A stretch of DNA of 34,216 nucleotides from a virus: positions 1 through 34,216 of IMG/VR virus record IMGVR_UViG_3300009159_000177; one strand, given 5' to 3'. This document shows positions 4,167-27,611 of the stretch, piece after piece. The first letter of the stretch is position 1, and the number at the start of each line of letters is the position of its first letter. The notes under the pieces were generated by a model. That model saw nothing but the letters and a program-made list of their open reading frames with translations. It made no database searches and was not told the DNA's origin. The translations under genes were made by a program, and so were the position numbers.

Positions 4167-6115
<1,949 letters not shown>

Positions 6116-11589: not shown

Positions 11590-13029
11590 ATGAAAGACAA
11601 TTTTCGTTATGTAAAGAAAGAGGATCGGAAAAAGATTCTCTTGTTATGCGATGATATTAGGATGCATTCCGGTATCGCAACTATGGCCAGAGAAATAGTC
11701 GTAGGAACAGCTCACCACTTTAACTGGATTAATGTAGGTGCAGCAATCAATCATCCTGAAGCAGGAAAAGGAGTTGATATCTCAGCTGAAGTAAATACCT
11801 TTGCTGGATTAGATGATGCATGGGTAAGGGTGTTACCTTATAGTGGTTACGGTGATGCAATGCTTATTAGAACATTGATCACTCAAGAAAAGCCAGATGC
11901 AATTTTTATCTTTACAGATCCAAGATATTGGACTTGGTTATTTGAAATCGAAAGAGAGATTAGAAATCAAATTCCAATCCATTATTTAAATATTTGGGAT
12001 GATCTTCCAACTCCTCTTTATAATAAATCATACTATGAATCATGTGATTTATTAATGGCTATCTCAAAACAAACTAAAAATATCAATGAGATTGTTTTAG
12101 GGGAATCGGCTAAAGATAAAATTATCAAATATGTTCCTCATGGAATAAACGATAAACATTTCTTTCCAATTAGGGAAGGGCATGAGAATTTTGGATTGCT
12201 ACAGGAGTTTAGAAAGAAGATGTTTGGAGAAAAGGAAATTGACTTTGTAGTTGTTTTTAATTCTAGAAACATTAGAAGAAAATCTCCAGGAGATGTAATC
12301 TTATCTTATAAATTATTCTGTGATATGATTGGAGAAGAAAGATCGAAGAGATCTGCTCTTATAATGCATACACAGGCTGTAGATGAAAATGGAACAGATC
12401 TTTATGCAGTAAGAGAAGCTCTTTGTGATGAGAATGTAAATGTATTTTTCTCACAAGATAAATTAGATACACCGCAAATGAACCTACTCTACAATGTAGC
12501 TGATGTTGGAATGCTTATTACTTCAAATGAAGGATGGGGATTATCTTTAACTGAAACTATGATGGCCGGTAGAATGATTATTGCAAATGTAACTGGAGGA
12601 ATGCAAGATCAAATGAGATTTGAGCATGATGGTAAGTGGATTGACTTTACTCCTGACTTCCCTTCCAACCATAGAAAGACAGTTAAGGATTGTGGGGACT
12701 GGGCAGTGCCCGTATTTCCTTCAAACATATCATTAGTCGGTTCAGTTCCTACTCCTTACATCTTTGACGATAGATGTGCTCCTGAAGATGTAGCAAAAGC
12801 ATTATGTGATGTATATGATATGTCAAAAGAAGAAAGAGATGCAAAAGGATTATTAGCCAGAGAATGGGTAACATCAGACGAATCAGGAATGTCAGCAAGA
12901 CAGATGTGCGAGAATGTAATCGATGCAATGGAAGAATCGTTTGAGAAGTTCACACCAAGACCTAGATTCGAACTACATAAAATTATAGACAGACCAAAAA
13001 AACGTATAACACATAAATTAATATACTAG
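11590..13029 (+). CDS. GT-B (GT4-like) glycosyltransferase
   Basis: 479 aa. Family 4-type transferases move a sugar from a nucleotide sugar to an acceptor. N-terminal Rossmann half: KKILLLCDDIRMHSGIATMAREI. C-terminal half: VVFNSRNIRRKSPGDVI, then the donor-site segment SNEGWGLSLTETMMAGRMII near residues 311-331, an E-x7-E motif. The last 30 residues are basic (RPKKRITHKLIY). First gene of the glycan cluster. Substrate unknown; cytoplasmic. Confidence 0.85.
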   Translation: MKDNFRYVKKEDRKKILLLCDDIRMHSGIATMAREIVVGTAHHFNWINVGAAINHPEAGKGVDISAEVNTFAGLDDAWVRVLPYSGYGDAMLIRTLITQEKPDAIFIFTDPRYWTWLFEIEREIRNQIPIHYLNIWDDLPTPLYNKSYYESCDLLMAISKQTKNINEIVLGESAKDKIIKYVPHGINDKHFFPIREGHENFGLLQEFRKKMFGEKEIDFVVVFNSRNIRRKSPGDVILSYKLFCDMIGEERSKRSALIMHTQAVDENGTDLYAVREALCDENVNVFFSQDKLDTPQMNLLYNVADVGMLITSNEGWGLSLTETMMAGRMIIANVTGGMQDQMRFEHDGKWIDFTPDFPSNHRKTVKDCGDWAVPVFPSNISLVGSVPTPYIFDDRCAPEDVAKALCDVYDMSKEERDAKGLLAREWVTSDESGMSARQMCENVIDAMEESFEKFTPRPRFELHKIIDRPKKRITHKLIY

Positions 13030-13030
13030 T

Positions 13031-13549
13031 ATGGGACTAAGTTTTAAAACATATCAACATCAACTACAAGAGCAAGTTTCAATATACGATACACTAGAGG
13101 AGGTATTTGATGCAAAACCTTTCAAAACAACATTCATGTTTATTAAAGATGAGGATGATGTATACGTACCTCGCTTTAACGATCCTAAAGGAAATGCAAT
13201 TAATATACGCTTTTACCACGAAGGTAATGGATTATATACATTAGATTTTACGGTTAATGATACAAGTTACAAAAGTGATACTACAAAATATACGTTACTA
13301 GACTACACAACTCTACTTACTACTATTGCTCAAGCAGTAACACAGTTTCTAGAAAAATATAATCCTATAGGACTAGCATTATCAGGTACTAATGTATATG
13401 AAAAAATTGCTACTAAACCTCAAGCTGAAGGACAGAAGGATAGAATTTATAAATTTTTTATTTCACAAATAGAAGATAAAGGAAATTACATGGTAGACAA
13501 GTCTATAAAAGATGGAATTGCCTTAATGAGAAAATACAAACAAGATTAA
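13031..13549 (+). CDS. Hypothetical protein, mixed alpha/beta
   Basis: 172 aa, not recognised. The first half predicts beta strands (TTFMFIKDEDDVYVPRF, AINIRFYHEGNGLYTLDF) and the second half helices (LLTTIAQAVTQFLEKY, KDGIALMRKYK). No signal, membrane segment or metal motif. It lies between two glycosyltransferase genes with a one-base gap before it and 11 bases after, yet does not look like an enzyme of glycan synthesis. It could be a virion or accessory protein. Confidence 0.6.
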   Translation: MGLSFKTYQHQLQEQVSIYDTLEEVFDAKPFKTTFMFIKDEDDVYVPRFNDPKGNAINIRFYHEGNGLYTLDFTVNDTSYKSDTTKYTLLDYTTLLTTIAQAVTQFLEKYNPIGLALSGTNVYEKIATKPQAEGQKDRIYKFFISQIEDKGNYMVDKSIKDGIALMRKYKQD

Positions 13550-13560
13550 TATATTAAGTT

Positions 13561-14079
13561 ATGAGTAAACCTACATTAGTAGTAAGTTGCCCTATTGATA
13601 CTTATTCAGGGTATGGGGCAAGAGCAAGAGACTTTGTACAATCAATTATCGATTTAGATAAGTATGAAGTACAGATATTATCACAGAGATGGGGTAATAC
13701 AAGATTTGGATACTTACAAGATCATAGTAATGAATCTTTAGCATCTAGAATCATTCCTCAACTAACAGCACAACCAGACATCTGGATTCAGATTACAGTA
13801 CCAAATGAATTTCAAAAGGTAGGTAAGTACAACATCGGGGTAACAGCCGGTATTGAAACTACACTTTGTGATGGTACTTGGTTGGAAGGATGTAACAATA
13901 TGGATTTGGTTTTAGTTTCTTCTGAACATGCTAGAAAAGTATTTCAGGAAAGTAAATATAATGTACAAGACAATAGAACAGGACAAGTAACAGGTCATAT
14001 TGAATTACAGACTAAAATGGAAGTTCTATTTGAAGGAGCTGATTTAGATAAGTACTACAAAATAAATTGGGAAGATTAG
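13561..14079 (+). pseudogene. N-terminal half of a GT-B glycosyltransferase, separated from its C-terminal half
   Basis: 172 aa that read like the acceptor-binding half of a GT4-like enzyme: VVSCPIDTYSGYGARARDFV, then WIQITVPNEFQ, VTAGIETTLC, LVLVSSEHARKVF. It stops after FEGADLDKYYKI, where a complete enzyme would enter its donor-binding half. That half resumes at 14801, after an HNH endonuclease gene. The last residues (NWED) are probably insertion-derived. Gene splitting by a homing endonuclease is known in phage Aeh1 (nrdA split by mobE), where the two halves still assemble. Whether these halves do is unknown. Confidence 0.75.
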
Positions 14080-14112
14080 GTTGGTAGGTCATTGGGTTTT
14101 CTAAAAAAGATA

Positions 14113-14121
14113 CTATTTATA
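14113..14121 (+). promoter_or_regulatory. CTATTTATA motif before the HNH gene
   Basis: Exact CTATTTATA, 14 bases before the HNH ATG, within ACTATTTATAA. The same string precedes the genes at 27264 and 32809. Possibly a promoter of a second, perhaps late, class. Confidence 0.45.
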
Positions 14122-14135
14122 ATAAAGAAAATACA

Positions 14136-14789
14136 ATGAACTATCAAAGAATCTACGATCAGATAATTGATCGAGCAAGAAAGGAAAGTAGAAAGAAAGG
14201 TCAAGGAAGTTATTATGAAGCACATCATGTTATTCCAAAATGCTTAGGAGGAAGTAATGTGAAGGATAATATAGTTTTATTAACAGCAAGAGAGCACTTT
14301 GTATGTCACAAGTTGTTAGTAGAGATTTACCCTGATAATTACAGAATAGTTTTTGCATTTTGGTGTATGTGCGGAATGAGAAATGATCTCACAGAAGGAA
14401 AGAGGCACATACCTTCAACTAGAGATTATGAGCAAACTAGGTTATTAATGAGTAAACTAACAACAGGGATTCCAAAATCAGAAGAGCATAGGCAAAAAAA
14501 CTCGGATTCACATAAGGGTAGGACTCCCTGGAATAAGGGAAAAGTGCGTACAGAGCTTCATACACTAAATAACAAAATAGGTCAGAAAAACAGGAGAGAA
14601 GTTAATCAACTTACCTTAGAAGGAGAATTTGTAAAAACATGGGATAGTATTTCTGATGCAGCAAAGCATTATGGGATAGGAGTTTCACACTGCTTAATGG
14701 GTAGGCAAAAAGCAACTAAGGGGTATAGATGGCAGTACACAACACCAGAACCCCCAATGCAGAGAATAGGAGGAAAGTTAAAAAAATAA
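14136..14789 (+). CDS. HNH homing endonuclease with NUMOD DNA-binding modules
   Basis: 217 aa. The HNH site is visible as EAHHVIPKCLGGSN and DNIVLLTAREHFVCHKLL (H30/H31, N45, H54). Downstream is a NUMOD3-like segment, PKSEEHRQKNSDSHKG, and a NUMOD1-like helix-turn-helix, KTWDSISDAAKHYGIGVSHC. This module order is typical of phage freestanding homing endonucleases, which cut a site in an uninvaded allele and spread by repair. It lies exactly between the two halves of a glycosyltransferase gene and has its own CTATTTATA motif. Noncoding flanks total only about 70 bases, too few for a group I intron. Confidence 0.88.
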   Translation: MNYQRIYDQIIDRARKESRKKGQGSYYEAHHVIPKCLGGSNVKDNIVLLTAREHFVCHKLLVEIYPDNYRIVFAFWCMCGMRNDLTEGKRHIPSTRDYEQTRLLMSKLTTGIPKSEEHRQKNSDSHKGRTPWNKGKVRTELHTLNNKIGQKNRREVNQLTLEGEFVKTWDSISDAAKHYGIGVSHCLMGRQKATKGYRWQYTTPEPPMQRIGGKLKK

Positions 14790-14800
14790 AAATAGTTATT

Positions 14801-15601
14801 ATGAAAAAAGCAGATTCAAAAATCTACCAAGAATTATTACAAATACCAGAGGAGTTTCTATTTCTTACAATCGGACATTGGCTTCCTGGAGAAGTAGGGG
14901 AAGATAGAAAGAATATTGGATACACTATCAAAGCATTCTTAGAAACATTTAAGAATAAGCAGAAAGGAAAACGACCAGGACTTATTCTTAAAGTACAAGC
15001 AGGATCAGGAACTTCTATTATGGATAGAGAAACAGTACTTGATAAAATTGATGCAATAAGACAAACTGTAAAAGGAGATTTACCAAATGTATACCTACTA
15101 CATGGTGAAATGTCTGATGCAGAAGTAAATGAATTATATAACCATAGCAAAGTCAAGGCAATGATTACTTTAACTAAAGGAGAAGGATTTGGAAGACCAT
15201 TACTTGAATTTAGTTTAGTAAATAAGCCAATCATTGCAAGTGGATGGTCAGGTCAAGTTGATTTCTTAGATAAGGAATTTACTAAACTAATCGGAGGAAC
15301 TCTAACACCAGTACATCCTTCAGCAGCAATCGATAAGATGATCTTAAGAGAAAGTTCTTGGTTCACTCCAGATCCAATTGAAGTAGGAAGGGCTTTAAAA
15401 GAAGTATATGAGGATTATGACAAATGGAAAACTGCAGCTAAAAGACAAGGGCATAAGTCAAGAACACAGTTCTCATATGATAATATGAGAGAGACAGTAG
15501 GTACCCTTCTAACACAGTATGTACCTGAATTTCCAAAGCAAGTACAATTAAAACTACCTCAATTAAAGAAAATTGAATTACCTAAATTACAAAAAGTATA
15601 A
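14801..15601 (+). pseudogene. C-terminal half of the split GT-B glycosyltransferase
   Basis: 266 aa from the ATG at 14801; an in-frame start at 14729 lies inside the HNH gene and is less likely. It carries the donor-site half of a GT4-like enzyme: EEFLFLTIGHWLPGEVG, NVYLLHGEMSDAEVNELY, then TLTKGEGFGRPLLEFSLVNK (E-x7-E) and ASGWSGQVDFL. It lacks the N-terminal half, found at 13561. The tail is Lys/Leu/Pro-rich (KLPQLKKIELPKLQKV). It may still function with the other half in trans, so 'broken gene' is provisional. One-base overlap with the next gene. Confidence 0.75.
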
Positions 15602-16059
15602 TGGAAGAAAAAATGATAGACTGTCCACATTGTGGAGGTAATGCTTGTTATGAACAAGTAGTAACGGAAGAAGTAAAAACTAATTTCTGTTTCGGTTGTG
15701 GATTCACAACATCAACTATAATGGTTGAAGGAACAAAACCAGTATTAGATGCTTTAGAAACATCTCCGGAATTATATAAAGACCTTATGTTTATTGATGA
15801 GGATAAAAAAGTATGGTTTCCAGCCACAGTTACTCTTCCTGAGAAAGGAATGGTATTCTTAGATGGAACTTCTAAAGATAATTGGAAATGGTCTGCAGTC
15901 CAAGCTATAGAAATTACTGAGGAAGAAAAAAGTAAATATCCAGAAGGTCAAACTCATAAAATGGATACAAAAAATACTCAGATGTTTGATAAAAAAGATT
16001 TTATGGATGCATTAGATGCTATTAAATTCTTTGATGTATTAGTTGCAGAACAAGAATAG
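15601..16059 (+). CDS. Zinc-ribbon protein of unknown function
   Basis: 152 aa. CPHCGG (residues 8-13) and CFGCGF (about 30-35) form a four-cysteine zinc ribbon at the N terminus. The rest is soluble, with a WFPATVTLPEKGMVFLDG segment and acidic helical end. Similar zinc-ribbon hypotheticals are frequent in large marine T4-like phages. It begins on the last base of the preceding stop (one-base overlap) and sits inside the glycan cluster. Role unknown. Confidence 0.6.
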   Translation: MEEKMIDCPHCGGNACYEQVVTEEVKTNFCFGCGFTTSTIMVEGTKPVLDALETSPELYKDLMFIDEDKKVWFPATVTLPEKGMVFLDGTSKDNWKWSAVQAIEITEEEKSKYPEGQTHKMDTKNTQMFDKKDFMDALDAIKFFDVLVAEQE

Positions 16060-16080
16060 TTTTCGTATATTAATATAATG
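16043..16080 (+). promoter_or_regulatory. Promoter for the central glycan operon, giving a probably leaderless mRNA
   Basis: TTG at 16043-16045 (inside the upstream gene), 20 bases, TATATTAA at 16066-16073. The ATG follows at 16078, only four bases after the box. Confidence 0.7.
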
Positions 16081-16695
16081 AAGTTAAGTTATGCAATAAC
16101 AGTTTGTAATGAATTGGAGGAAGTGAAAAGACTAGTCAACTTCCTCCTTTCCAACAAACGAAAGGAAGATGAAATAGTAATCTTGTACGATACAGGCGGC
16201 AGTACCGAAGTTTACGATTACGTAGATAATGTAGATGAGATAATAAATGTATTTGTAATAAAAGATAAATTTCAAGGACACTTTGCTGATTGGAAGAATA
16301 AGTTCTTTAAGGTATGCTCAGGAGATTACATCTTTCAGATAGATGCTGATGAGATTCCTCACATTAACTTAATACAAAACCTTCCTACAATGTTACAATC
16401 TAACGATGTCGATATGGTTAGAGTACCTAGAGTTAACACTGTAGAAGGACTAACTCAAGAGCATATTGAGAAATGGGGATGGAATGTAAATGAAAAAGGA
16501 TGGGTGAACTGGGCCGATTGGCAAATGAGAATCTATAAGAATACTCCTCACATAAGATGGGTCAACAAAGTACACGAAGTACTAGAAGGATTTAAGATTC
16601 ATGGAATGCTTCCACCAGAAGAGGAATGGGCCCTATATCATCCAAAGACAATAGAGAGACAAGAAAAGCAAAATAATTACTATGACACACTCTAG
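16078..16695 (+). CDS. GT2-family glycosyltransferase
   Basis: 205 aa, a GT-A fold. Starts with LSYAITVCNELEEVKRLV, the common GT2 opening, then ILYDTGGST. The metal/nucleotide DxD is QIDADEI near residue 95. LYHPKTIERQEKQNNYYDTL closes the chain. Probably cytoplasmic; sugar unknown. It opens a run of overlapping genes and has its own promoter. Its 3' end overlaps the next gene by 14 bases. Confidence 0.8.
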   Translation: MKLSYAITVCNELEEVKRLVNFLLSNKRKEDEIVILYDTGGSTEVYDYVDNVDEIINVFVIKDKFQGHFADWKNKFFKVCSGDYIFQIDADEIPHINLIQNLPTMLQSNDVDMVRVPRVNTVEGLTQEHIEKWGWNVNEKGWVNWADWQMRIYKNTPHIRWVNKVHEVLEGFKIHGMLPPEEEWALYHPKTIERQEKQNNYYDTL

Positions 16696-17533
16696 TCCGT
16701 TAACACACTGTATATCAACATACAACAATCTACCTTACTTAAAACTAGCAGTACAGTCAGTAAGAAAAAATTCTTACTTCAAAGATGCTCCTTTTATTAT
16801 TCATGCAGAAAACTGTACAGACGGGACTAATGAATGGTTATTTGAGAATAGAGATAAGTATAACCTAACCTTACTAGTTGAGCCACAGACAATAATAACT
16901 AGAGGTATTGGAGGAGGAATGAATGTCTGTGCTGATCACGTAGAGACAGAATATATTAACTTTCTTCACTCAGATTTTTACGTAACTAAAGACTGGGATA
17001 TTGAATTATTAAGGATACATCAGACATATCCAGAAGAAAAACTATGGGTTAATTCATATAGAATAGAACCAAATATGTTTAACTCTCCTGAAAGACCTGG
17101 AACTTTATTAATAGGTAAGGATGCTTTTGGATGCTATCATGATACTTTCTTACCTCAAGCATTTGAGAATTGGATTACAGAGTTTAAAGAGATGAATGAC
17201 TACTTTGAGATACCAAAAGGAGAAGGAGTATCAGGATTAGTTAAGAAATCTGTATGGGATGAAGTAGGAGGTAATGATCCTAGATTTGCACCAACATCAT
17301 GGGACGATATGGATTTATTTCTCAGAATGCTACAGCATGGAGTTAGGTTCGTACTTCCATTCAGTTCAATTGTATGGCACTTTGGAGCAAGAGGTTCACA
17401 TAGATTAGAAGAAAACGAAGGTAAATCCTCTCAAAGACAGAAAGAAACAGAACAAAAAAATGCTATTAAGTGGTTGGAGAAGTGGAAAAAAATGCCTATA
17501 TTTGATCAATACGGAATGATAAAACAATTTTAA
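16682..17533 (+). CDS. GT2-family glycosyltransferase
   Basis: 283 aa. TLTHCISTYNN-like opening (LTHCISTYNNLPYLKLAVQSV), then ENCTDGTNEW, and the DxD-type site HSDFYVTKDWD. The C-terminal acceptor region holds RFAPTSWDDMDLFLRMLQHG and VWHFGARGSHR, typical of GT2 enzymes. It overlaps the preceding gene by 14 bases and precedes the next by two. Substrate unknown. Confidence 0.82.
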   Translation: MTHSSPLTHCISTYNNLPYLKLAVQSVRKNSYFKDAPFIIHAENCTDGTNEWLFENRDKYNLTLLVEPQTIITRGIGGGMNVCADHVETEYINFLHSDFYVTKDWDIELLRIHQTYPEEKLWVNSYRIEPNMFNSPERPGTLLIGKDAFGCYHDTFLPQAFENWITEFKEMNDYFEIPKGEGVSGLVKKSVWDEVGGNDPRFAPTSWDDMDLFLRMLQHGVRFVLPFSSIVWHFGARGSHRLEENEGKSSQRQKETEQKNAIKWLEKWKKMPIFDQYGMIKQF

Positions 17534-17535
17534 AA

Positions 17536-18333
17536 ATGAACAATTTTACACTATACTGTAAATCATATCAGAAAGATCTTAATAGAGTTATAAATCTTTC
17601 AGAATCTATACGAAAGTTTAACGCAGATAACATACCCTTTTATATTAGTGTACCTAAGTCTGATTTAGAATTATTTAGAAATAATTTAGATTCAAGCGTA
17701 ATAGTTCTTGAAGATGAAAGTCTATATACAGGTACAGCTCCTGGATGGATTCAACAGCAGATTGTAAAATCAAATTTCTGGAAATTAGGTTTAGCAAAAA
17801 ATTACCTCTGTATAGACTCAGATGCTTACTTTATAAGACCTTTTTATGTTACAGATTTTATGTACGATGAGAATACTCCGTATACTGTGATACATGAACA
17901 GAGAGAACTATTTACATGGACTTCTACAAAAGTAGTTGAGTTAGGATTTAACCCTAAGGTAAGCTTTATACAAGATAGGCAAAAGATAATGAACTTATTT
18001 AATAGAAGAGGTCGTCACTATGATTTTGGACCTTCACCAATACTATGGTCATCAGAAGTATGGAAGTCCTTAGAAGAAAATTACATAACACCTAACAATC
18101 TTTCTTTTAACAATTTATTAGAATACTCACAGTCTGAATTTAGCTGGTACGGAGAAGCTTTATTAGCTTTTAAGGCTATCGAGCTATACCCTATTGAACC
18201 TCTATTTAAAGTTTTTCACTATCCACAACAGTTAAATGAATATAAACAGCAGGGAATAACAGAAGCTATGATAGCAGATAATTACTTAGGTATAATTATG
18301 CAATCAAACTTTAATGCACCGTTAACATATTAG
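17536..18333 (+). CDS. Glycosyltransferase of the DUF6492 type
   Basis: 265 aa. YCKSYQKDLNRVINLSESI, PFYISVPKSDLELF, IQQQIVKSNFWKLGLAKNYL and CIDSDAYFIRPF follow the pattern of DUF6492, a putative GT-A glycosyltransferase family with a DSD metal site (about residues 94-96). GPSPILWSSEVW probably lines the acceptor pocket. Common in capsule and LPS gene clusters. The exact sugar cannot be read. Confidence 0.75.
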   Translation: MNNFTLYCKSYQKDLNRVINLSESIRKFNADNIPFYISVPKSDLELFRNNLDSSVIVLEDESLYTGTAPGWIQQQIVKSNFWKLGLAKNYLCIDSDAYFIRPFYVTDFMYDENTPYTVIHEQRELFTWTSTKVVELGFNPKVSFIQDRQKIMNLFNRRGRHYDFGPSPILWSSEVWKSLEENYITPNNLSFNNLLEYSQSEFSWYGEALLAFKAIELYPIEPLFKVFHYPQQLNEYKQQGITEAMIADNYLGIIMQSNFNAPLTY

Positions 18334-18335
18334 TT

Positions 18336-19193
18336 ATGCAAGAAATATTAGTAACAGGAGGAGCTGGGTTTGTTGGCTCTAACCTAGTAAAGAGGTTAAA
18401 AAAAGAAGGACATAAAGTTGCTGTACTAGATAATTATAGTGCTGGTTTACATGAAAATGAAATTGAAGGAGTGACTTATATTGAAGATCATACTAAAAAT
18501 ATAAGTAATCTAGAGTTACCTTTTATTCCTGATGTTATTTTTCACTTAGGAGAGTACTCTAGAATACATCCATCGTTTGAAGAATATGAAAGAGTTTGGC
18601 AATATAATACAGTAGGTACCTTTGAGGTATTAAACTTCTGTAAGAAGTATAATATAAAAATAGTTTATGCTGCTTCAAGCACTAGGTTTGCCAAAGAAGG
18701 AACAAATCATTCACCATACTCTTTAACAAAGTCTATGAGTATTGATCTAGTTAAAGCATTTGCTAAATGGTACGACGTACCTTACTCTATTTGTTATTTC
18801 TATAATGTATTTGGACCAGGGTATGATAGTAGTCCTGTACCGGGATATGAATCAGTTATTAGTGTATTTGAAAAGCAATATAAAGCAGGAATACCTATAA
18901 CAGTTTCAGGAGATGGACAACAGAGCAGAATGTTTACATATGTAGATGATATTGTAGATGGATTAATTAAGTCCTGGAAGTATGAAATAAATGATGAATT
19001 TGAACTAGGAAACCCTATAAAATCCTATACGATACTAGAGATAGCAAAAATGTTCTCGGATAATATCCAATTTGTAGTAGCACGTAAAGGAGATAGAACA
19101 GATAGTGTACTGCAAACGTACGATAAGACTTGTGAGAAACTAAAATGGTCTCCTACCATGACAGTAGAGGAATGGATTAATCTAATTAAGTAG
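18336..19193 (+). CDS. NAD-dependent sugar-nucleotide epimerase/dehydratase
   Basis: 285 aa, extended short-chain dehydrogenase. NAD-binding GGAGFVG (G8, G11, G14), the Asp at LDNYSAG for the adenosine ribose, catalytic Ser region AASSTR (S114-S115), and YSLTK (Y128, K132) are all intact. QSRMFTYVDDIVDG and FELGNPIKSYTI are typical of GalE/WbpP-like enzymes. It would convert a nucleotide sugar for the nearby transferases. The specific reaction (4-epimerase versus 4,6-dehydratase) is uncertain. Confidence 0.87.
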   Translation: MQEILVTGGAGFVGSNLVKRLKKEGHKVAVLDNYSAGLHENEIEGVTYIEDHTKNISNLELPFIPDVIFHLGEYSRIHPSFEEYERVWQYNTVGTFEVLNFCKKYNIKIVYAASSTRFAKEGTNHSPYSLTKSMSIDLVKAFAKWYDVPYSICYFYNVFGPGYDSSPVPGYESVISVFEKQYKAGIPITVSGDGQQSRMFTYVDDIVDGLIKSWKYEINDEFELGNPIKSYTILEIAKMFSDNIQFVVARKGDRTDSVLQTYDKTCEKLKWSPTMTVEEWINLIK

Positions 19194-19194
19194 T

Positions 19195-20517
19195 ATGACA
19201 ATAATATATCCGATAAACGGAAAGAATGAACGAATGGGGAGTTTATTTAACACTCCTAAACACCTACTACTGTATAAAGGAAAACAGATACTTAAATGCT
19301 CTATAGATAATATACAAAAAGAATATCCAGAAGCAAAAGTTGTAATACTTACAAATATATTTTACTCAGAAGCTATTACTCAACTAACCTCTTATAATCC
19401 TTCAGTAATAGTTGAAGTAGTTGGAAGTACAACCTCTCATGTAGAAACTTTAAGAAGTTCAAACTATATAAAGAGTGGTTCAGTATTGTTCGTAGATTGC
19501 GATATAGTTCCAGAAGCTCTTGGTATATTTGATAAAAAATATCCAACAGTATTTACATTTAAGAACAATACCGGACTACTAAATTATAGTAATTACCAAG
19601 TTGATAGTGGTAATAATATAATAAGTTGTAACGAAAAAGAAGAAATATTTGAAAATGCAGGAGCCGGTATTTACTACTTTCCGGGTATGGAAGAATTCCT
19701 AAACTACTCACAAGGATGTAAAAGCATTTCAGAGTGTATAGGTAGAATGTTACTTGATAACATAACTAGTAAAATTAATTCAACCAATACCATACATCGT
19801 TTTGGTACACTTCAAGATATTTACATAGACAACTTTTCATTTAGAGAGCCTGAAACTACAAACCTTAGTACCGGTTTTACAAATAATAAAGTATATAAAT
19901 CGAATAACTTAGTAATTAAAGAAGGAGATACAGTCTCAGATGAAAATAAATGGTATCTCTCCTATCAAAATAAGAAACATATACCAACTATTATAAGCTG
20001 TGAGCAAAATAAGTTAGTTATGGAGTTTATTAATAGAGATGCTGATGTAAATTTAGATGATATTTTTACATTAATAGAAGAGTATATGACCTATCCTAAG
20101 TTAAATGAGTTAACATACACTTCCTATATATCTAGAATAAAGTTTCATTTAGAAAAAAATACTAAGATTGGTAATGGAAGTAAGTTACTAACCTTGCTTG
20201 AGACTATCAATCTACCTGCAACATTTGCTCATGGAGACTTAAGCATTATGAATATAATCCCTACCAGGCTAGGATTAAAACTAATTGACCCACTTTACTC
20301 AGATACTAAATTTGGATGTTATGAATTAGATTTAGCAAAGCTATGCTTTAGTGTGAAGTATTATAAAAACGACTCAGCATCTTTCAACTACATTAAAGAC
20401 AAGTCAAATATCGATTACCTGGATATTTTAATTGCAGCAGAAGCTGTAAGAGTTTCTACATATAAAAGCGAGTATAGTTTTATTGCAGAGAATTTAATTA
20501 ATGAGTTGTATAATTAA
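19195..20517 (+). CDS. Fused sugar nucleotidyltransferase and APH-like kinase
   Basis: 440 aa with two domains. Residues 1-220 resemble nucleotidyltransferases: IIYPINGKNERMGSLF with K22 in TPKHLLLYKG, FVDCDIV as metal-binding DxD, and NAGAGIYYFP. Residues 225-440 are an aminoglycoside phosphotransferase/choline kinase-like fold: a Lys in VIKEGD (K242), AHGDLSIMN (H346, D348, N353) and LKLIDPLY (D365). A kinase plus NTP transferase would phosphorylate and then activate a sugar or small alcohol. Similar fusions occur in bacterial capsule loci. Product unknown. Confidence 0.78.
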   Translation: MTIIYPINGKNERMGSLFNTPKHLLLYKGKQILKCSIDNIQKEYPEAKVVILTNIFYSEAITQLTSYNPSVIVEVVGSTTSHVETLRSSNYIKSGSVLFVDCDIVPEALGIFDKKYPTVFTFKNNTGLLNYSNYQVDSGNNIISCNEKEEIFENAGAGIYYFPGMEEFLNYSQGCKSISECIGRMLLDNITSKINSTNTIHRFGTLQDIYIDNFSFREPETTNLSTGFTNNKVYKSNNLVIKEGDTVSDENKWYLSYQNKKHIPTIISCEQNKLVMEFINRDADVNLDDIFTLIEEYMTYPKLNELTYTSYISRIKFHLEKNTKIGNGSKLLTLLETINLPATFAHGDLSIMNIIPTRLGLKLIDPLYSDTKFGCYELDLAKLCFSVKYYKNDSASFNYIKDKSNIDYLDILIAAEAVRVSTYKSEYSFIAENLINELYN

Positions 20518-20542
20518 AAGAAAATACCTATATTAAAGTATG
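20506..20542 (+). promoter_or_regulatory. Promoter for the HAD-methyltransferase part of the glycan cluster, probably leaderless
   Basis: TTG at 20506-20508, 20 bases, TATATTAA at 20529-20536. The ATG is at 20540, only three bases after the box. Confidence 0.7.
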
Positions 20543-20893
20543 AGACCTAGAACAATATTCTGCGATATAGACGGAACTTTAATCAAACACGACCCACCAG
20601 AGGTATCTTTTAAGTCTGATTATAAAATGCAACCACTAGCCGGTACACTTACTAAACTTTTAGAGTGGGATAGATTAGGTTACAATATTATATTGACAAC
20701 AGGTAGGAGAGAAAGTCTACGTAGTATTACAGAAAAGCAACTTAATGAAGTAGGTATTTTTTATGATCAATTAATTATGGGAATAGGAGGAGGTTGTCGA
20801 TACTTAATTAATGATAATAAAGCTAACGGAGATATTACTGCTGTTGCTATTACGATAGAAAGAAATCAAGGAATAAATAACTTAAATATCTAA
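20540..20893 (+). CDS. HAD-superfamily phosphatase, small
   Basis: 117 aa. Motif I FCDIDGTL with nucleophile D9 and acid D11, motif II TTGR (T54), and a C-terminal YLINDNKANG in place of the usual metal-binding Asp pair. Probably a sugar-phosphate phosphatase, as is usual next to nucleotidyltransferase-kinase genes in capsule loci. No cap domain is visible; the length is short. It follows the fused kinase gene under a separate promoter. Confidence 0.78.
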   Translation: MRPRTIFCDIDGTLIKHDPPEVSFKSDYKMQPLAGTLTKLLEWDRLGYNIILTTGRRESLRSITEKQLNEVGIFYDQLIMGIGGGCRYLINDNKANGDITAVAITIERNQGINNLNI

Positions 20894-20896
20894 AAT

Positions 20897-21562
20897 ATGA
20901 AAATTGAAAATTATGGAGTTGCTTTTGAAGTTACAGAGAATCCAAAGTATACAAATTTCTGGAGAAGCCACTTCTGTGGAAACTGGGAGGTAGATACCTT
21001 TGAATTCTTAAGTAAGCATTTATCTTCGGAAAAGACTTTATTGGATATTGGCTCCTGGATTGGACCAATAGCACTACCAGCCGCACAAGTTACTAAACAA
21101 GTTATATGTTTTGAACCAGATCCGGTAGCACATGAAGAACTTGTAAAGAATATAGAATTAAATAAATATACTAATATTTTTTTAGAGAAAAAAGCAGTAT
21201 CCATTCACAAAAGTATCTGGTTAGGAGCTGATGAATTAGGAGAAAGTATTACAAGCGATAGCCGAAGTAAAGAGAATAGATTCGAAATAGGATGTATATC
21301 AGTTGAAGAAGTCTTTAAGAAATATAACTTAAAAGAAGAAGATGTATGTGCTATTAAAATTGATATTGAAGGTCACGAAGCAGAACTACTTCAAGATGAG
21401 TTTTTAATGAACTTAAATATCCCAATGCATATTTCACTTCATTTTGAATTTGCAGAAGATAGAGAACTTTTTGCACAAAAAATTTCTAAATTCTTAAAAA
21501 AGAAAAATATAGATATAACAAGACTTAATACTAATGCAAATATCTCTATAGAAGTTCTATGA
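20897..21562 (+). CDS. FkbM-family SAM-dependent methyltransferase
   Basis: 221 aa. SAM-binding LLDIGSWIGPIALPAA, FEPDPVAHEEL for the ribose, and AIKIDIEGHEAELLQD typical of FkbM enzymes, which O-methylate sugars. The C terminus is helical. It ends four bases into the next gene. Expected to methylate one of the glycan residues made by the surrounding transferases. Confidence 0.85.
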   Translation: MKIENYGVAFEVTENPKYTNFWRSHFCGNWEVDTFEFLSKHLSSEKTLLDIGSWIGPIALPAAQVTKQVICFEPDPVAHEELVKNIELNKYTNIFLEKKAVSIHKSIWLGADELGESITSDSRSKENRFEIGCISVEEVFKKYNLKEEDVCAIKIDIEGHEAELLQDEFLMNLNIPMHISLHFEFAEDRELFAQKISKFLKKKNIDITRLNTNANISIEVL

Positions 21563-22359
21563 GATCATGTATAGTTTTTGCAGTATCAATCTTCAATGAA
21601 GAGAAGTTAAACGTACTTACAGAATTTTTAGATACATTTAAGTTACATTTTTCGGACTGTGACATGTCTGTAGGAATTAATTACGGTTCTATAGAAGAAG
21701 TAGAGAGAGTATTAGCATCCTATGACTTACCTATCCAACATATAAGAATTACAGATAAAGATCTTTATACAGGATCAGATGCTGGTGCATATCAAGCAGC
21801 ACTGTCTTTGCTAAAAGCAAGTAACAAGCAGTACGATGTTTGCTGGTTTGCACATACTAAAGGAGCTGTAAATAATAGACCTGTAGAGAGAGGAATGTAC
21901 CTTTCAAATCTATTTAGAAATCGTATTCATATTGAAAACTTATTTCAACAGTATGACAAGTTAGGTAGCTATGCCCTTAGAGGAGTATCCAGAGGTGCAG
22001 GAGGAGATGCTTGGAGTACCTTTAATAGAGATCATCACATAGGTATTTGTTCTAATGAAGTTTTTAGTGATTTTAAATACACACACGTAAACTGGTCTTA
22101 TATAGAAACTATGTATGTTATAAATGGAAAAGTTGTACAAAGCTTTCTTGACAATACTTCTGAAAGTTACTATACTACTGCTATAAAAGAACCATGTTAC
22201 TTTGAAGTTATATTTCCATGGATAGTTGGAAGATGCGGATATTTTCCGTATATTAAACAAAGTGAATGTTTCTGGAGAGAGGCAGACCTGAGAAATATTA
22301 CACAGAGGTGGATAGATGAAAATAATCTATCAGAATTACAACCATACTTATCTATATGA
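21559..22359 (+). CDS. Putative glycosyltransferase, unclassified
   Basis: 266 aa. The opening SCIVFAVSIFNEEKLNVL resembles GT-A enzymes. A central AHTKGAVNNRPVERGMYL carries an HTKG segment seen in some LPS and rhamnan-type transferases. RGAGGDAWSTFNRDHHIG is also conserved-looking. No clean DxD is visible, so a non-catalytic role cannot be excluded. Starts four bases before the methyltransferase stop and ends four bases into the next gene. Confidence 0.5.
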   Translation: MRSCIVFAVSIFNEEKLNVLTEFLDTFKLHFSDCDMSVGINYGSIEEVERVLASYDLPIQHIRITDKDLYTGSDAGAYQAALSLLKASNKQYDVCWFAHTKGAVNNRPVERGMYLSNLFRNRIHIENLFQQYDKLGSYALRGVSRGAGGDAWSTFNRDHHIGICSNEVFSDFKYTHVNWSYIETMYVINGKVVQSFLDNTSESYYTTAIKEPCYFEVIFPWIVGRCGYFPYIKQSECFWREADLRNITQRWIDENNLSELQPYLSI

Positions 22360-23129
22360 AATTATTAGTATCACTTTCGTCTTACGGGACTAAGAATGTT
22401 AACTACTTAGAAAAAGTAATTGACGAGTTTGTTTCTTATAAGAATTATGATGTTACAGTTAGCTTGCATTGTACAGTGCCTTTAAGTCGTACCGATATAA
22501 AACAAGAGGTATACGATAATCCAAAGAACAATTGCCTTTTTCACAGAGAAGAATTTATTAGAGAAAAAGACAATTACGATTTATTTCTTTTTGCTGAGTA
22601 TGATATACTGATTAAGGAAGCAGTTATAGATACTTACCTTAAGTACGATAAAGTACTACCTATAGGTTACTGTGCAGGATTTTTAAGGTACGAGGATACT
22701 CCTGAAGATATGAAATACTATATAGATATTTGGCCTCACGCTCACGGAGGAGGTTATATTAAATCACACAATACCGTAGTTAATGGTAGAGAGTATTTCG
22801 TTTTAACTAATCCACATCAGGCATGTTATTTACTAACTAAGGAAAAGCTTAACTACGTTATAAATAATACACAGTATAACTTTCACGAGCTTAACGGATT
22901 AGGAATAGAATCAGCAGCATCAACAGTATTTTCAGATTGGAGCTACAGTCCTACTGGTATCATAAAAAAAGTATATCCGAAAAATAAACAAGACTTAGAA
23001 AATTTACAAGTACATCACACCCCGGATTGTCATGTAAATGAACCAGGAGTTAATACAGATCCACTTACATACCGTAATACATCGGCAACATTAGACATTT
23101 TAATAAGAGACGTAAATATACAAAACTAA
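22356..23129 (+). CDS. Putative GT-A glycosyltransferase
   Basis: 257 aa. KLLVSLSSYGTKNVNYLEKV opens as in GT-A proteins. DLFLFAEYDILI gives an acidic E-x-D metal-site candidate near residue 85. A His/Gly-rich segment (WPHAHGGGY) and VLTNPHQACYLLTKEKL follow. No family certain. Its location in an uninterrupted glycan operon supports a transferase. Confidence 0.55.
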   Translation: MKLLVSLSSYGTKNVNYLEKVIDEFVSYKNYDVTVSLHCTVPLSRTDIKQEVYDNPKNNCLFHREEFIREKDNYDLFLFAEYDILIKEAVIDTYLKYDKVLPIGYCAGFLRYEDTPEDMKYYIDIWPHAHGGGYIKSHNTVVNGREYFVLTNPHQACYLLTKEKLNYVINNTQYNFHELNGLGIESAASTVFSDWSYSPTGIIKKVYPKNKQDLENLQVHHTPDCHVNEPGVNTDPLTYRNTSATLDILIRDVNIQN

Positions 23130-23139
23130 ATTTAAAAAA

Positions 23140-23763
23140 ATGACAAAACTAAAAATTAACAAAGAGTTAGTAATTGATAAAAACAAAGTATTAACAGAGA
23201 GTATTGAAAGCCCTGATGGCTGGGTAGATTTTGCAAGAGGAGTACATGGTGAACATTATGGCTTACTTTGTTACCTTTCTACTAAATTTAATAATGCAAC
23301 TATTTTAGACTTAGGAACTTGGGCAGGATGGTCAGCTGTATCGATAGCTCAAAATCCTACCAACAAGATTATAACTTACGATATAGTAGATGAGCTAGGA
23401 AGATCTCAAAACGGTATATGTATTCAGGATAAGTTTAATACTTATTCAAATATAGAACGTAGAATGATTGATGCTAGAACAGAATCTGCTGAAGTAATAA
23501 ACTCAGCAGACTTAATCATATTAGATATCGATCCACATGATGGAATTCAAGAAACTGACTTTACAAATTACCTAGATCAGATAGGTTATGAAGGATTTGT
23601 AGTATGTGATGATGTGCATTTGAATGAAGGAATGAGAAGATGGTGGAGCAGTATTACATTACCTAAGTACGATCTTACAGATGTAGCACATAATAACTCT
23701 CAAGCAGGAACAGGACTTATCTGTTACGGAAAAGTAAAAGCTACAGTAATTGAATTAGAATAA
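23140..23763 (+). CDS. Class I SAM-dependent methyltransferase
   Basis: 207 aa. TILDLGTWAGWSAVSIA is the SAM-binding GxGxxG-like motif, KIITYDIVDELG the post-II acidic residue, and LIILDIDPHDG plus VVCDDVHLNEGMRRWW the remaining catalytic core, resembling the methyltransferase 24 type. Expected to methylate a sugar or carried group. Surrounded by glycosyltransferases. Separate from the FkbM gene and unrelated to it beyond the fold. Confidence 0.75.
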   Translation: MTKLKINKELVIDKNKVLTESIESPDGWVDFARGVHGEHYGLLCYLSTKFNNATILDLGTWAGWSAVSIAQNPTNKIITYDIVDELGRSQNGICIQDKFNTYSNIERRMIDARTESAEVINSADLIILDIDPHDGIQETDFTNYLDQIGYEGFVVCDDVHLNEGMRRWWSSITLPKYDLTDVAHNNSQAGTGLICYGKVKATVIELE

Positions 23764-23773
23764 GAATAAGTAT

Positions 23774-25363
23774 ATGAAAGTACTTTTTATATCAAAAGCA
23801 GACCTACCAGACTATCAAAGTGATATGATCTTTCATGGAGGCAGGTCTGTGCTTGGTTCCGATTTTGTAGACTGTAACAAATTATGGTACATGTACAAGG
23901 AAGATAAGGAACTATACTGGAACGATAGAGTACCGGAGAATGGTAAGAGTTACGGAAGAGGTTTTACTATGTGCGGTAAGCTAACAGAAGATAATATTGA
24001 TAGATCTGATATAGAAAGTAAGATCAAGTCTCACTTCTTTGATAAGATTATTTACGGATCATGTACAAGATGTACAGATTACCTAGATGTAGTCTTATCT
24101 AATTATAGTAAAAAAGATATTATATTTGTAGATGGAGAAGATGATCAGCAAATACGTCAACACTTTTTAGATAAAGGAATTTATTTTAAGAGAGAATTAA
24201 TACCGCAAGATCTCGATAAAGCCAATCCTCTATACTTTGCTATACCCGAAGAGCTTATCCTATCTGAAGTTCCACATAAAGTAAAAGAGTATGCAACTAT
24301 AATTCCTGGAGATTTATCTACATATATCTACGATGATGAAGAAAGTTACTATAAAGGATATCAGGAGTCTTACTTCGGAGTTACATTTAAAAAAGGAGGA
24401 TGGGATTGTTTGAGACATTATGAAATTATAATGAACGGATGCCTTCCATACTTTCCAGACTTAATGCAATGTCCTTCACATACTATGTTAAGCTTTCCTA
24501 AAAAGACAGTACTGGAGTATAGTACGAGGCTAGTAGCTGGAATATTAAAAGAAGAAGAATGTCTAACTTATACTAAGGTATTGTTACAGTATGCAAAAAA
24601 TAACTTAACAACTAAACACCTTTTTAATTATATAATAAAAGAAATACCTACTATGAAAGAAACATATATATTTATCTGCAGCTACAATCGCCTAGAGCCT
24701 CTAAAGATGTTAGTAAAAGCCTTAACACAGAGGGGTTATAAAAATATTGTTGTATTGGATAACGGTACAACCTACCAACCATTATTAGGTTGGTATAAGA
24801 CAGCAGAAGTGAAAGAAGTTTACTTCTGTGCAAACAACTATGGTCCAGAAGCTCTAGACTGTGTACGAAACTTCGAATCAGATTTCCAGCAAAAATACAA
24901 TCACATAGTATTGAACGAATACCACGTCTATACTGACAGCGATGTTGTACCTATTGACGAAGTTCCTCACGATTTTATAGATAATATGGTTGAGATGTGT
25001 AAGCAGTATGGAATACCAAAAATAGGATTGAGTTTAAAAATTGACGACTTACCTGACCATTTCGTATTAAAAAATAAAGTTGTATTACATGAGAGTAGCT
25101 TCTTTGAGCGAGAGTTTATAGAAGATGATAGATGTAGATTATACAAAGCTCCTGTAGATACAACCTTTGCAGTAAATGCCCCTGGGCTTGCTTGTGGGTA
25201 TAGTGATTATGCTTATAGAGCAGCAGGAACTTATTTTGCTAAACATATGCCTTGGTATTTTGATTCTAATAACCTACCTGTAGACGAAATCTACTACCTT
25301 GATCATATAACTGGGGTTCGTCCTCATTGGTCTAATTTACTAAAAGAAGTAATCAATAAATAG
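23774..25363 (+). CDS. Two-domain glycosyltransferase
   Basis: 529 aa. Residues 1-285 look like a GT-B-type or receptor-like half: IIYGSCTRCTDYL, KGGWDCLRHYEIIMNG, CLPYFPDLMQCPS. Residues 295-529 form a GT-A domain: ETYIFICSYNRLEPLKML, IVVLDNGTTY, YTDSDVVPI as the DxD, and a C-terminal YYLDHITGVRPHW. A linker with NYIIKEIPTMK separates them. Two activities on one chain would add consecutive sugars or tie synthesis to acceptor recognition. ATG codons inside the linker could also give a separate shorter product, but no promoter is evident there. Confidence 0.72.
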   Translation: MKVLFISKADLPDYQSDMIFHGGRSVLGSDFVDCNKLWYMYKEDKELYWNDRVPENGKSYGRGFTMCGKLTEDNIDRSDIESKIKSHFFDKIIYGSCTRCTDYLDVVLSNYSKKDIIFVDGEDDQQIRQHFLDKGIYFKRELIPQDLDKANPLYFAIPEELILSEVPHKVKEYATIIPGDLSTYIYDDEESYYKGYQESYFGVTFKKGGWDCLRHYEIIMNGCLPYFPDLMQCPSHTMLSFPKKTVLEYSTRLVAGILKEEECLTYTKVLLQYAKNNLTTKHLFNYIIKEIPTMKETYIFICSYNRLEPLKMLVKALTQRGYKNIVVLDNGTTYQPLLGWYKTAEVKEVYFCANNYGPEALDCVRNFESDFQQKYNHIVLNEYHVYTDSDVVPIDEVPHDFIDNMVEMCKQYGIPKIGLSLKIDDLPDHFVLKNKVVLHESSFFEREFIEDDRCRLYKAPVDTTFAVNAPGLACGYSDYAYRAAGTYFAKHMPWYFDSNNLPVDEIYYLDHITGVRPHWSNLLKEVINK

Positions 25364-25366
25364 TTT

Positions 25367-26092
25367 ATGTTAATAGCAACACTTAATCACAACTTACCTG
25401 ACCTTACTGATAATTTAGTTAATCAGTTAAAGAGAGATCCATATTTTAAATACTGTGAGTTAATGGTAGTAGATAATGGATCAAAAGAATCAATAGCTAA
25501 ATCAACAACACATCGACTAGAAGAAAATATTTTCTTTGGAGGAGGTTTCAATGTAGTATTGGATTACTTTCTAAATCAAACAGAACACGAATACTTATAC
25601 TTTCTTAACAACGATCTTATCTTTCACGGTCCATCCTTTATAACAACATCTCTAAGAGAAGCAAAAAAATCTGATGCAGCAGTCTACTCTCCTTCAGTTA
25701 TAAATGCTTCAATTGAACAATGTCACTGGAAGCAAATGTGGAACTGGGGTAAAGGACTAAGAGAAGTAAAGTGGGTTGATTTTCAATCACCACTTATACG
25801 TAGAGATATTCTAGAGAAGATTAGAATATTCCCTCAAGAACTTATTTATGGATGGGGATTAGATTTCTACACTGGGTGTATGACTACAAGATACAATCTT
25901 AAGACAGTAGTATCAGATACCAATACTATATGTCATTTAAACTCTCAAACATTTAAACAAAATAAGATTGATATAGGAGTTTCAGAATTTTGTAGAAATG
26001 CAGAAATAAATATGAATAATTACTTTAGTAATTCTAAATTTAATTCATTATATTTAGACTTAAGACAGTACGGAGAAAATTATATATTATGA
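25367..26092 (+). CDS. GT2-family glycosyltransferase
   Basis: 241 aa. LIATLNHNLPDLTDNLVNQL, then MVVDNGSKES and FLNNDLIFHG (NND metal-site region) give a GT2 core. WGWGLDFY-like (GWGLDFYTGCMT) defines the acceptor side. The C terminus is Asn/Tyr-rich. Three bases separate it from the preceding gene and it overlaps the next by four. Confidence 0.78.
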   Translation: MLIATLNHNLPDLTDNLVNQLKRDPYFKYCELMVVDNGSKESIAKSTTHRLEENIFFGGGFNVVLDYFLNQTEHEYLYFLNNDLIFHGPSFITTSLREAKKSDAAVYSPSVINASIEQCHWKQMWNWGKGLREVKWVDFQSPLIRRDILEKIRIFPQELIYGWGLDFYTGCMTTRYNLKTVVSDTNTICHLNSQTFKQNKIDIGVSEFCRNAEINMNNYFSNSKFNSLYLDLRQYGENYIL

Positions 26093-27243
26093 TTTCACTT
26101 ATAATCCCTAGTTATAATAACTTACAGCATTTACAAAATGTATACGCTTCAATACAGAAGCATGAACCTCAAGCAGAAGTAATTCTACTTGATGATGGCT
26201 CAACAGATGGTACCTGGGACTGGATACAACGACAAGATTGCATTAAATTTAGGAGTGACCAAAGAGTAGGGCATACAATTCTTTATGATAAAGGAATTGA
26301 ATTAGCCACAAATAATATAGTAGGAATACTTCATGCAGATATGATTGTAGGTCCTAATTACTCTAAAAATCTAATTAAACATCTTAAGACTGGTACTGTC
26401 GTTTGTGCAACTAGAATCGAACCTCCTCTTCATCCTGAAGGAAAAGAAAAGATCATTAGAGATTTTGGAATGGACTTTGATACTTTAGATGTGAATTCAT
26501 TTGAAGAATTTGTTAGAGATTTACAAGCAGTTGAAGGCGAGATTACAAAAGGAATGTTTGCTCCATGGTTACTTTACAAAAAAGATTTCCAAGCTATTGG
26601 AGGTCACGATCCATTATTTGCTCCGTTTCCATACGAAGATTCCGACATATTCCAAAGATGGATTTTAGCTGGGTATGAATTAATTCAATCTAGAGATGCA
26701 CTTGTATACCACTTAACCTGTAGAGGTCATAGGTGGAATGATCAAATAGGTAAAGATGATGAATATTATAAAGAAGTATCAAGCAAAGCAGCTAGGAACT
26801 ATTTACGAAAATGGGGAAATTGGATTGCTAACGATGAATACCAATGTCCAATTATAAAACCTAAATATAATATAGCATTTGCAGTCAAGCATGCTAATTT
26901 TCAAATTGTGGAAGCATTAGAACCTTGGTGCGATAGGCTGTATATTGAAGATAGTATGCAAGTGATTACAGATTCATATAGAGAGAAAGAACAATCTAAT
27001 ACTAAGTTTGATTTAACTAAAAGAGTTCTTACATTAGAGTATAATGATCCTAAAGGAGAAAATGATATCGTGGTTGAGTTTGATGCAAGAAACTTCTCCC
27101 ACCAATCATTCCAAGTAATTCAACAACTACCAGAAATAATAAAGCAAAGCGGAGAGGTTGGTGAGTTTGAATTAGATATATTTAAAATAACAATCTATTC
27201 AATGACAGAATATCAGAATGATTTAATTGTATGTAACAATTAA
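26089..27243 (+). CDS. GT2-family glycosyltransferase with C-terminal extension
   Basis: 384 aa. The GT-A domain covers about residues 1-230: SLIIPSYNNLQHLQNVY, LLDDGSTDGTWDW, and LHADMIVG (D-x-D-like HAD). APFPYEDSDIFQRWILAG and HRWNDQIG match phage GT2 enzymes. Residues 260-384 are an additional region (VKHANFQIVEALEPWCD, VVEFDARNFS) whose role I cannot assign. It closes the cluster; the CTATTTATA motif of the next gene begins right after its stop. Confidence 0.8.
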   Translation: MISLIIPSYNNLQHLQNVYASIQKHEPQAEVILLDDGSTDGTWDWIQRQDCIKFRSDQRVGHTILYDKGIELATNNIVGILHADMIVGPNYSKNLIKHLKTGTVVCATRIEPPLHPEGKEKIIRDFGMDFDTLDVNSFEEFVRDLQAVEGEITKGMFAPWLLYKKDFQAIGGHDPLFAPFPYEDSDIFQRWILAGYELIQSRDALVYHLTCRGHRWNDQIGKDDEYYKEVSSKAARNYLRKWGNWIANDEYQCPIIKPKYNIAFAVKHANFQIVEALEPWCDRLYIEDSMQVITDSYREKEQSNTKFDLTKRVLTLEYNDPKGENDIVVEFDARNFSHQSFQVIQQLPEIIKQSGEVGEFELDIFKITIYSMTEYQNDLIVCNN

Positions 27244-27263: not shown

Positions 27264-27611
27264 ATGTCACTAATAAACGAAATTAAACAAATACTTTCAG
27301 AAGTAACTACAGTAAACTTTCAAGGACAAAAATTTGTACTTAAAGTAGATGTAAATGAAGATCCAAATAAAAAAGGAATCAAAGTTCAATTCCTGCCAAC
27401 ACAATTTGACGGAATGTCAAAACAAAAGCAAGATGAACTTGCAATGGCTTTAGAAAGTAAATTGGATCAAGGGCTACAATCAATAGGAATGAAAGTAGAA
27501 AGAGATAGACAATTAAAAGATAAAACTATCATTGGATTTTTCATCTATATTGAATATGTAGATAAGATAATTAGACAAGCATTAGCACAATCAAGTCAAC
27601 CTCAAAAATAA
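27264..27611 (+). CDS. Small protein with head-targeting-like N terminus
   Basis: 115 aa, unrecognised. MSLINEIKQILSEVTT is an amphipathic helix ending in LSE, similar to capsid-targeting segments with a protease site (Leu/Ile-x-Glu). The rest is mixed beta/alpha (FVLKVDVNEDPNKKGIKVQF, TIIGFFIYIEYVDK) and fairly basic. It begins the region after the glycan genes under the CTATTTATA motif. I infer a possible head or internal virion protein. Confidence 0.55.
   Translation: MSLINEIKQILSEVTTVNFQGQKFVLKVDVNEDPNKKGIKVQFLPTQFDGMSKQKQDELAMALESKLDQGLQSIGMKVERDRQLKDKTIIGFFIYIEYVDKIIRQALAQSSQPQK

Follow-up and report, generated by a model that had tools for sequence, protein, structure and literature searches.

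We analysed a 34,216-base IMG/VR virus record (IMGVR_UViG_3300009159_000177), referred to below as the window, with a focus on a region of sugar genes at positions 11590-27243. The window covers part of the genome of a myovirus related to Flavobacterium phage vB_FspM_immuto (NC_055915; hereafter immuto), a 160-kb myovirus with T4-like capsid genes. Its gene order is that of immuto: QueF, DNA polymerase A, GroES/GroEL, endolysin, holin, DUF3310 and a PD-(D/E)XK nuclease, followed by the sugar region and then by HNH and DUF932. The region itself is syntenic with immuto, and its open reading frames (ORFs) are long, on the same strand and packed tightly, far beyond chance. The comparison set comprised 30 islands or records (28 IMG/VR relatives, immuto and the window); among them are one complete genome of 160 kb and several contigs between 139 and 183 kb long. 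Judged by this comparison, the region consists of two layers, a fixed core and a swappable module. The features are listed below with their strand; percentages are identities, and GT stands for glycosyltransferase.

11590..13029, +, core GT 1, gp181-like, GT-B/GT4, EX7E motif EGWGLSLTE; 82% to immuto gp181
13031..13549, +, 172-residue non-GT ORF between both core GT4s; weak DUF6934 match only
13561..14079, +, N-terminal half of core GT 2, a gp180-like GT4, ending in a short tail without homology; 81% to residues 1-168 of immuto gp180
14136..14789, +, HNH/NUMOD homing endonuclease gene within core GT 2; Pfam NUMOD3 and HNH matches
14801..15601, +, C-terminal half of core GT 2, gp180-like, with the catalytic EX7E motif EGFGRPLLE; 79% to immuto gp180
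15601..16059, +, core protein gp179 with a zinc-ribbon N-terminus; present in 30/30 islands
16078..16695, +, core GT 3, gp178-like GT2; Pfam GT2 E 6e-11, above cut-off
16682..17533, +, module GT2; Pfam GT2 E 1e-8, above cut-off; 80% to L095
17536..18333, +, module DUF6492 protein, probable GT-A; invariant DxD (DSD)
18336..19193, +, module SDR nucleotide-sugar epimerase/dehydratase; E 1e-37; GGAGFVG, YSLTK
19195..20517, +, module nucleotidyltransferase fused to a choline-kinase/APH-like kinase; weak profile matches; motif HGDLSIMN...LIDP
20540..20893, +, module small HAD phosphatase; profile match; homologues in the L088 and L097 modules
20897..21562, +, module FkbM-family methyltransferase; TIGR01444 E 2e-19
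21559..22359, +, module GT of predicted GT-A fold; AlphaFold2 model and structure comparison
22356..23129, +, module probable GT-A glycosyltransferase; invariant ExD
23140..23763, +, module S-adenosylmethionine (SAM) methyltransferase, Methyltransf_24-like; weak, E 2e-4; 47% to L106
23774..25363, +, module probable two-domain GT of 529 residues, from a motif
25367..26092, +, module GT2-like; Pfam E 1e-4, just below cut-off
26089..27243, +, module GT2, last module gene; Pfam E 3e-19, above cut-off
27264..27611, +, right anchor gp168, outside the module, function not assigned; 75% to immuto; in 27/30 islands
495..1421, +, QueF-type 7-cyano-7-deazaguanine reductase, far left of the region; TIGR03138 E 2e-74

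A fixed core and a replaceable module

Comparison of gene order with relatives, which the initial annotation had proposed as a way of finding variable cassettes, uncovered a module between gp178 and gp168 that is replaced block-wise. In the window this module measures 10.5 kb, starting at the stop codon of gp178 (16695) and ending at that of the last GT (27243); we set these limits because DNA homology with sister phages ends and resumes there. Homology with L084 runs to 16683 and is back at 27240, that with L083 runs to 16694, and an alignment of immuto with L085 breaks at the same two genes. L083 is the phage nearest the window (gp181 95.6% identical), yet of 14 module genes it shares only one at ≥50% identity. 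By the same threshold, immuto and L085 have one module gene in common at 95.8% core identity, and L105 and L107 have none at 96.6%. These alignments show sister phages replacing the module as a block with exact edges.

The fixed core comprises four genes: two GT4s (gp181 and gp180), the zinc-ribbon protein gp179, and the GT2 gp178. The first three are in all 30 islands (gp181 frameshifted in one) and gp178 is in 28. Compared with immuto, the core genes are 82/80/75/61% identical and have the same flanks and location. The ratio of nonsynonymous to synonymous substitution (dN/dS) is about 0.06-0.2 for core and anchors. IMG/VR holds at least 588 relatives of gp181. A search of 84,980 species genomes gave four core matches, all on contigs bearing the phage group's own genes in their own order, and the core is, within the sequences searched, known only from phages. 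Microcystis phage Mel-JY01 (L119, PP395634) has the order nuclease-gp181-gp180-gp178-...-GT at 12947-21265; because this cyanobacterial phage shares the core order, the island core crosses host phyla. Parts of the core are also found in Rhodothermus phage RM378. Separately, four metagenome-assembled 'genomes' (L206-L209, one labelled Woesearchaeota) contain contigs of the phage group and are probably binning errors.

About 139 gene families occur across 28 modules, and the count was still rising with each added locus. Among 116 sampled module genes there were many SDR dehydratases/epimerases, GT2, GT10, GT11 and GT17 enzymes and DegT aminotransferases, together with NeuD-type acetyltransferases, GDP-mannose dehydratase (Gmd), fucose synthase, acetolactate-synthase-like enzymes and methyltransferases. 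A NeuB-family synthase is present in four modules, and GT8 and nucleotidyltransferase-HAD fusions in others. This gene content is the repertoire of surface-polysaccharide loci. In L087 (14696-16548) and L096, an acetaldehyde dehydrogenase and a DmpG-like aldolase adjoin the acetolactate-synthase-like enzyme, possibly for a branched-chain sugar. The idea that the island is a compositional outlier was rejected, GC content being 31-34% throughout, and promoter-like sites did not exceed those in shuffled sequence (86 vs 85).

Predicted functions of core and module genes

The initial annotation had described a near-complete glycan assembly line with ten GT genes of at least three folds, an epimerase, a kinase-nucleotidyltransferase, a HAD phosphatase and two methyltransferases. 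The genes are real ORFs, most of their assignments are backed by profile or structure searches, and the overall description is a fair one. The number of GTs is indeed ten, with the split gp180-like gene counted once; the folds seen in the region are GT-A and GT-B, with no third. The remaining enzymes were supported, the nucleotidyltransferase-kinase by weak profiles and a clear kinase motif, and the methyltransferase at 23140-23763 by a weak match. The 172-residue ORF, the HNH endonuclease gene and the zinc-ribbon protein do not figure in the initial annotation.

Core GT 1 matches the PDB GT4 structure 3oy2 by profile (E 2.7e-13; its Pfam match, E 2e-5, lies below the cut-off), as does the broken gp180-like GT4 (E 1e-5). 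With GT4 profile similarity and the EX7E motif present in both, gp181 and gp180 are predicted GT-B/GT4 enzymes, and the best PDB match for each is chlorovirus B736L. The DNA alignment with L083 and L084 skips 13031-13544, so the 172-residue ORF between the two GTs is absent from these relatives; no relative of it was found in the islands examined. In gp179 the Cys pairs are conserved, and AlphaFold2 predicted its structure with high confidence (predicted local distance difference test, pLDDT, 91). Foldseek and VIA-align gave no usable PDB match to this fold (best PDB Z 3.2), and the single confident match in BFVD is an uncharacterised phage protein. Our guess is that gp179 may act as an adaptor between the core GTs and the acceptor.

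For the module gene at 21559-22359, structure comparison of the AlphaFold2 model gave Z 11.6 against ArnC (root-mean-square deviation 3.9 over 161 residues) and Z 11.2 against TarS, which points to a GT-A fold in a model of moderate confidence (pLDDT 61). The nucleotidyltransferase and kinase halves of 19195-20517 are encoded in L085 by two genes side by side. Bacterial neighbours were sought as a clue to its substrate, but among 84,980 genomes scanned there was no relative, and a PDB search gave no match. An IMG/VR pattern scan likewise gave no relatives of 22356-23129. As for the probable two-domain GT at 23774-25363, its N-terminal part stands alone in L105, and its C-terminal part, with the motif YTDSD, occurs in L206.

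The split core glycosyltransferase

The HNH/NUMOD gene interrupts the window's gp180 after about residue 168, where a linker joins the two Rossmann domains. The C-terminal half could start at 14729, but 14801 is more likely. Uninterrupted gp180 was found in 62 of the 73 sequences with a match; the HNH insert is in the window alone, and the other non-intact sequences either stop at a contig end or are frameshifted with no insert. L088 and L089, in which gp181 and/or gp180 are broken without an insert, look like frameshifts or assembly errors and were set aside. The dN/dS values of the two halves (N-terminal, 0.11-0.145; C-terminal, 0.06-0.13) are similar to those of intact neighbours.

Relatives of the HNH/NUMOD gene stand at other positions in other islands, and we class it as a free-standing homing endonuclease. 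We read the split gp180 as a case of genes in pieces, by analogy with Aeromonas phage Aeh1, in which nrdA is split by mobE (PMC2988022) and an HNH homing gene likewise lies in an enzyme gene with two open halves. Unlike nrdA, the gene split here encodes a putative GT-B glycosyltransferase and is interrupted at the interdomain linker. Core GT 2 would be made as two polypeptides, and both Rossmann domains presumably assemble into one enzyme, which makes the split GT a natural test of GT-B assembly from two domains. That nuclease genes lie at the borders of segments exchanged between phages has been noted before (PMC10448857).

The insert could instead be a self-splicing intron that carries the HNH gene, with the two halves joined in the mRNA. 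I-HmuI-type HNH/NUMOD enzymes are often borne by introns, and the reading frames of both halves would be compatible with splicing. However, only about 90 nucleotides of the insert lie outside the HNH ORF, too little for a group I core; there was no Rfam intron match, the folding z-score was -1.4, and related HNH genes are free-standing in other islands. We rejected an intron as the main explanation for gp180 and consider it doubtful.

Proposed acceptor of the putative glycan

We interpret the region as a phage glycan island, with a probability of roughly 0.6: an invariant core would build a linker and a replaceable module would supply the outer sugars, in the cytoplasmic glycosylation of a virion protein. 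Host and phage nucleotide sugars would be used directly in the cytoplasm of the infected cell. Before particles assemble or while they do, the core GTs would put a common stem on a soluble virion protein and lengthen it; the nucleotidyltransferase-kinase, HAD phosphatase and epimerase of the module would activate and convert special sugars, six or more module GTs would add them, and the methyltransferases would methylate the product. Lysis would then release glycosylated particles. Recombination in the conserved flanks would exchange the module, changing the glycan type while the linkage to the acceptor stays the same. A virion protein is the preferred target, since the core does not vary from phage to phage and is known only from phages, and a soluble acceptor would be needed because transfer is proposed to be direct and cytoplasmic. 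More tentatively, and at a little under even odds, the islands may amount to a system of virion glycan typing. Here a phage-only linker machinery would prime a structural protein and accept interchangeable modules of 10-20 kb, among them NeuB-type (nonulosonic-acid-like) and fucose-type ones, leaving near-identical phages differently coated.

The initial annotation had seen no flippase, polymerase or ligase and had favoured direct glycosylation of virion protein or DNA over synthesis of a host surface polymer. The first observation held in the wider test, in which none of the 30 records gave a match above cut-off for an initiating phosphoglycosyltransferase (PGT; PF02397), a flippase (PF01943) or a polymerase/ligase (PF04932), and control genomes were positive in 9, 13 and 9 of 14 cases, respectively. 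A hydropathy rule that assigns four segments to the window's holin found no multi-spanning membrane protein among the 519 genes of the 30 islands. The preference for direct glycosylation thus gains from the membrane genes missing in 30 records, with a route through the host's membrane machinery still conceivable. As to the target, a virion protein is now favoured and DNA disfavoured.

The strongest competitor, which we nevertheless regard as unlikely, is remodelling of the host surface: phage enzymes would extend or alter lipid-linked lipopolysaccharide (LPS) or capsule precursors, host flippase and ligase would export them, and sister phages would be excluded from the infected cell. The enzymes do resemble those of O-antigen synthesis, the modules vary as O-antigens do, and cyanophage clusters of the P-SSM2 type have been interpreted in this way (PMC7824862). 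Against it, the 30 islands have no PGT, flippase, polymerase/ligase or multi-spanning gtrA/gtrB-like protein, the immuto annotation is without integrase or repressor, and a fixed set of core GTs would face many types of host precursor. That the cluster is stuffer or transient cargo without selected function has been raised for cyanophage LPS clusters (PMC3037559) and would fit the highly variable module content. We give it hardly any weight, as practically all relatives retain core and anchors at low dN/dS, the module ORFs are open and tightly packed, and the edges are exact.

Glycosylation of DNA, with the GTs building oligosaccharides on modified phage bases, is scarcely more probable. It could draw on the solubility of the core GTs and on multi-GT DNA hypermodification in other phages (Pyle 2024, as cited in PMC12619734), but the phage group encodes a deazaguanine DNA modification instead. 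In immuto the pathway is complete, with QueC, QueF, DpdA, FolE, QueE and QueD (gp028, gp202, gp206, gp210, gp214 and gp216), and DpdA was found in 11 of 15 records tested, two of the matches being distant (E 1e-8 to 1e-9). Immuto ThyA, the only one examined, is by best match an ordinary thymidylate synthase and not a T-even-type dCMP/dUMP hydroxymethylase. There is at most one ThyA homologue per record in ten records and none in six that do carry core genes, namely G005, G012, G015, G016, Mel-JY01 and RM378. DNA is an unlikely acceptor because deazaguanine genes are present and ThyA is ordinary or absent.

Several points weigh against glycosylation of a virion protein. The island is not linked to any candidate acceptor gene, and the acceptor is one that we infer. 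Two of the ten GT calls (22356-23129 and 23774-25363) rest on motifs only, the transmembrane scan used a simple hydropathy rule, and the window and several relatives are fragments. The missing membrane genes would also be compatible with use of the host's lipid carrier, flippase and ligase, and purifying selection on gp180 may predate its split. B736L, the best match of core GT 1 among chlorovirus enzymes, itself has no known acceptor (PMC9614988), and comparable cyanophage clusters have been published as host surface modification (PMC7824862). A search for the acceptor by way of Ser/Thr-rich stretches in immuto singled out gp018 and a tail spike; with a clear match in only 5 of 13 genomes searched, gp018 cannot be a universal acceptor.

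Neither clusters of sugar genes in T4-like phages nor phage virions bearing glycans are new. The closest counterpart is the GT region of immuto (NC_055915 gp181-gp169), which has the same location, core genes and flanks as that of the window and a different module, with aminotransferases, an annotated pilin-glycosylation-type protein and others. It is annotated gene by gene, and we found no paper treating it as an island. The 'LPS biosynthesis' clusters of P-SSM2-type cyanophages likewise combine many sugar-production enzymes with several GTs in lytic T4-like phages and are polymorphic among relatives; the portions available of PMC3037559 and PMC7824862 do not describe for them the fixed core and exactly bounded module seen in the window's group. 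No homologues of gp180 or gp179 were found in any P-SSM2-type cyanophage, and for gp181 there was just a weak match, in Synechococcus phage S-CBS4. In mycobacteriophages Che8 and Rita, glycans on capsid or tail-tube subunits have been linked to phage GTs (Freeman 2023, as cited in PMC11256854 and PMC12619734). Phage-encoded GTs are common to Che8 and the window; the Che8 type, as those citations present it, has a few GTs and a demonstrated acceptor, whereas the window has an island with predicted sugar activation, conversion and methylation and a putative acceptor.

Chloroviruses such as PBCV-1 glycosylate their capsid protein in the cytoplasm with virus enzymes, and their glycans have a conserved core and variable decorations (PMC7826918). 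The window resembles them in its virus-encoded GTs and methyltransferase (FkbM beside GTs), and its constant core and variable modules, seen at the level of genes, may correspond to that core and those decorations. Chloroviruses, unlike the window phage, infect eukaryotic algae. We know of no chlorovirus whose glycosylation genes are organised as one swappable block. Bacterial O-antigen and capsule loci share the constant flanks and a replaceable centre of GT and nucleotide-sugar genes. Unlike Wzx/Wzy loci, the window's island is without PGT, Wzx, Wzy and ligase, and unlike serotype-converting gtr clusters, the 519 island genes include no multi-spanning GtrA/Gtr-like protein by hydropathy.

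To our knowledge, the open-access literature searched does not describe this layout, a fixed core and a replaceable module with exact edges, for a phage group that includes a cultured member. Sugar clusters of lytic phages came to light with the cyanophage genomes, and their target is disputed between host LPS, packaging filler and virion. Now that thirty islands have been aligned, with the core fixed, the module edges exact and no membrane step found, the target becomes testable in cultured immuto. If virions are coated, phages would be able to switch types much as capsules do, which would affect adsorption, decoy binding and grazing. Soluble GTs and sugar enzymes could moreover be drawn from both core and modules.

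Some minor observations concern genes outside the island. DpdA is very divergent in G005 and G013, and none was found in G014. The immuto thymidylate synthase gene (NC_055915 26884-28155) has about 100 extra residues that split its profile match. GroES and GroEL are encoded at window positions 4167-6115 and are kept in immuto and on contigs L206 and L207.

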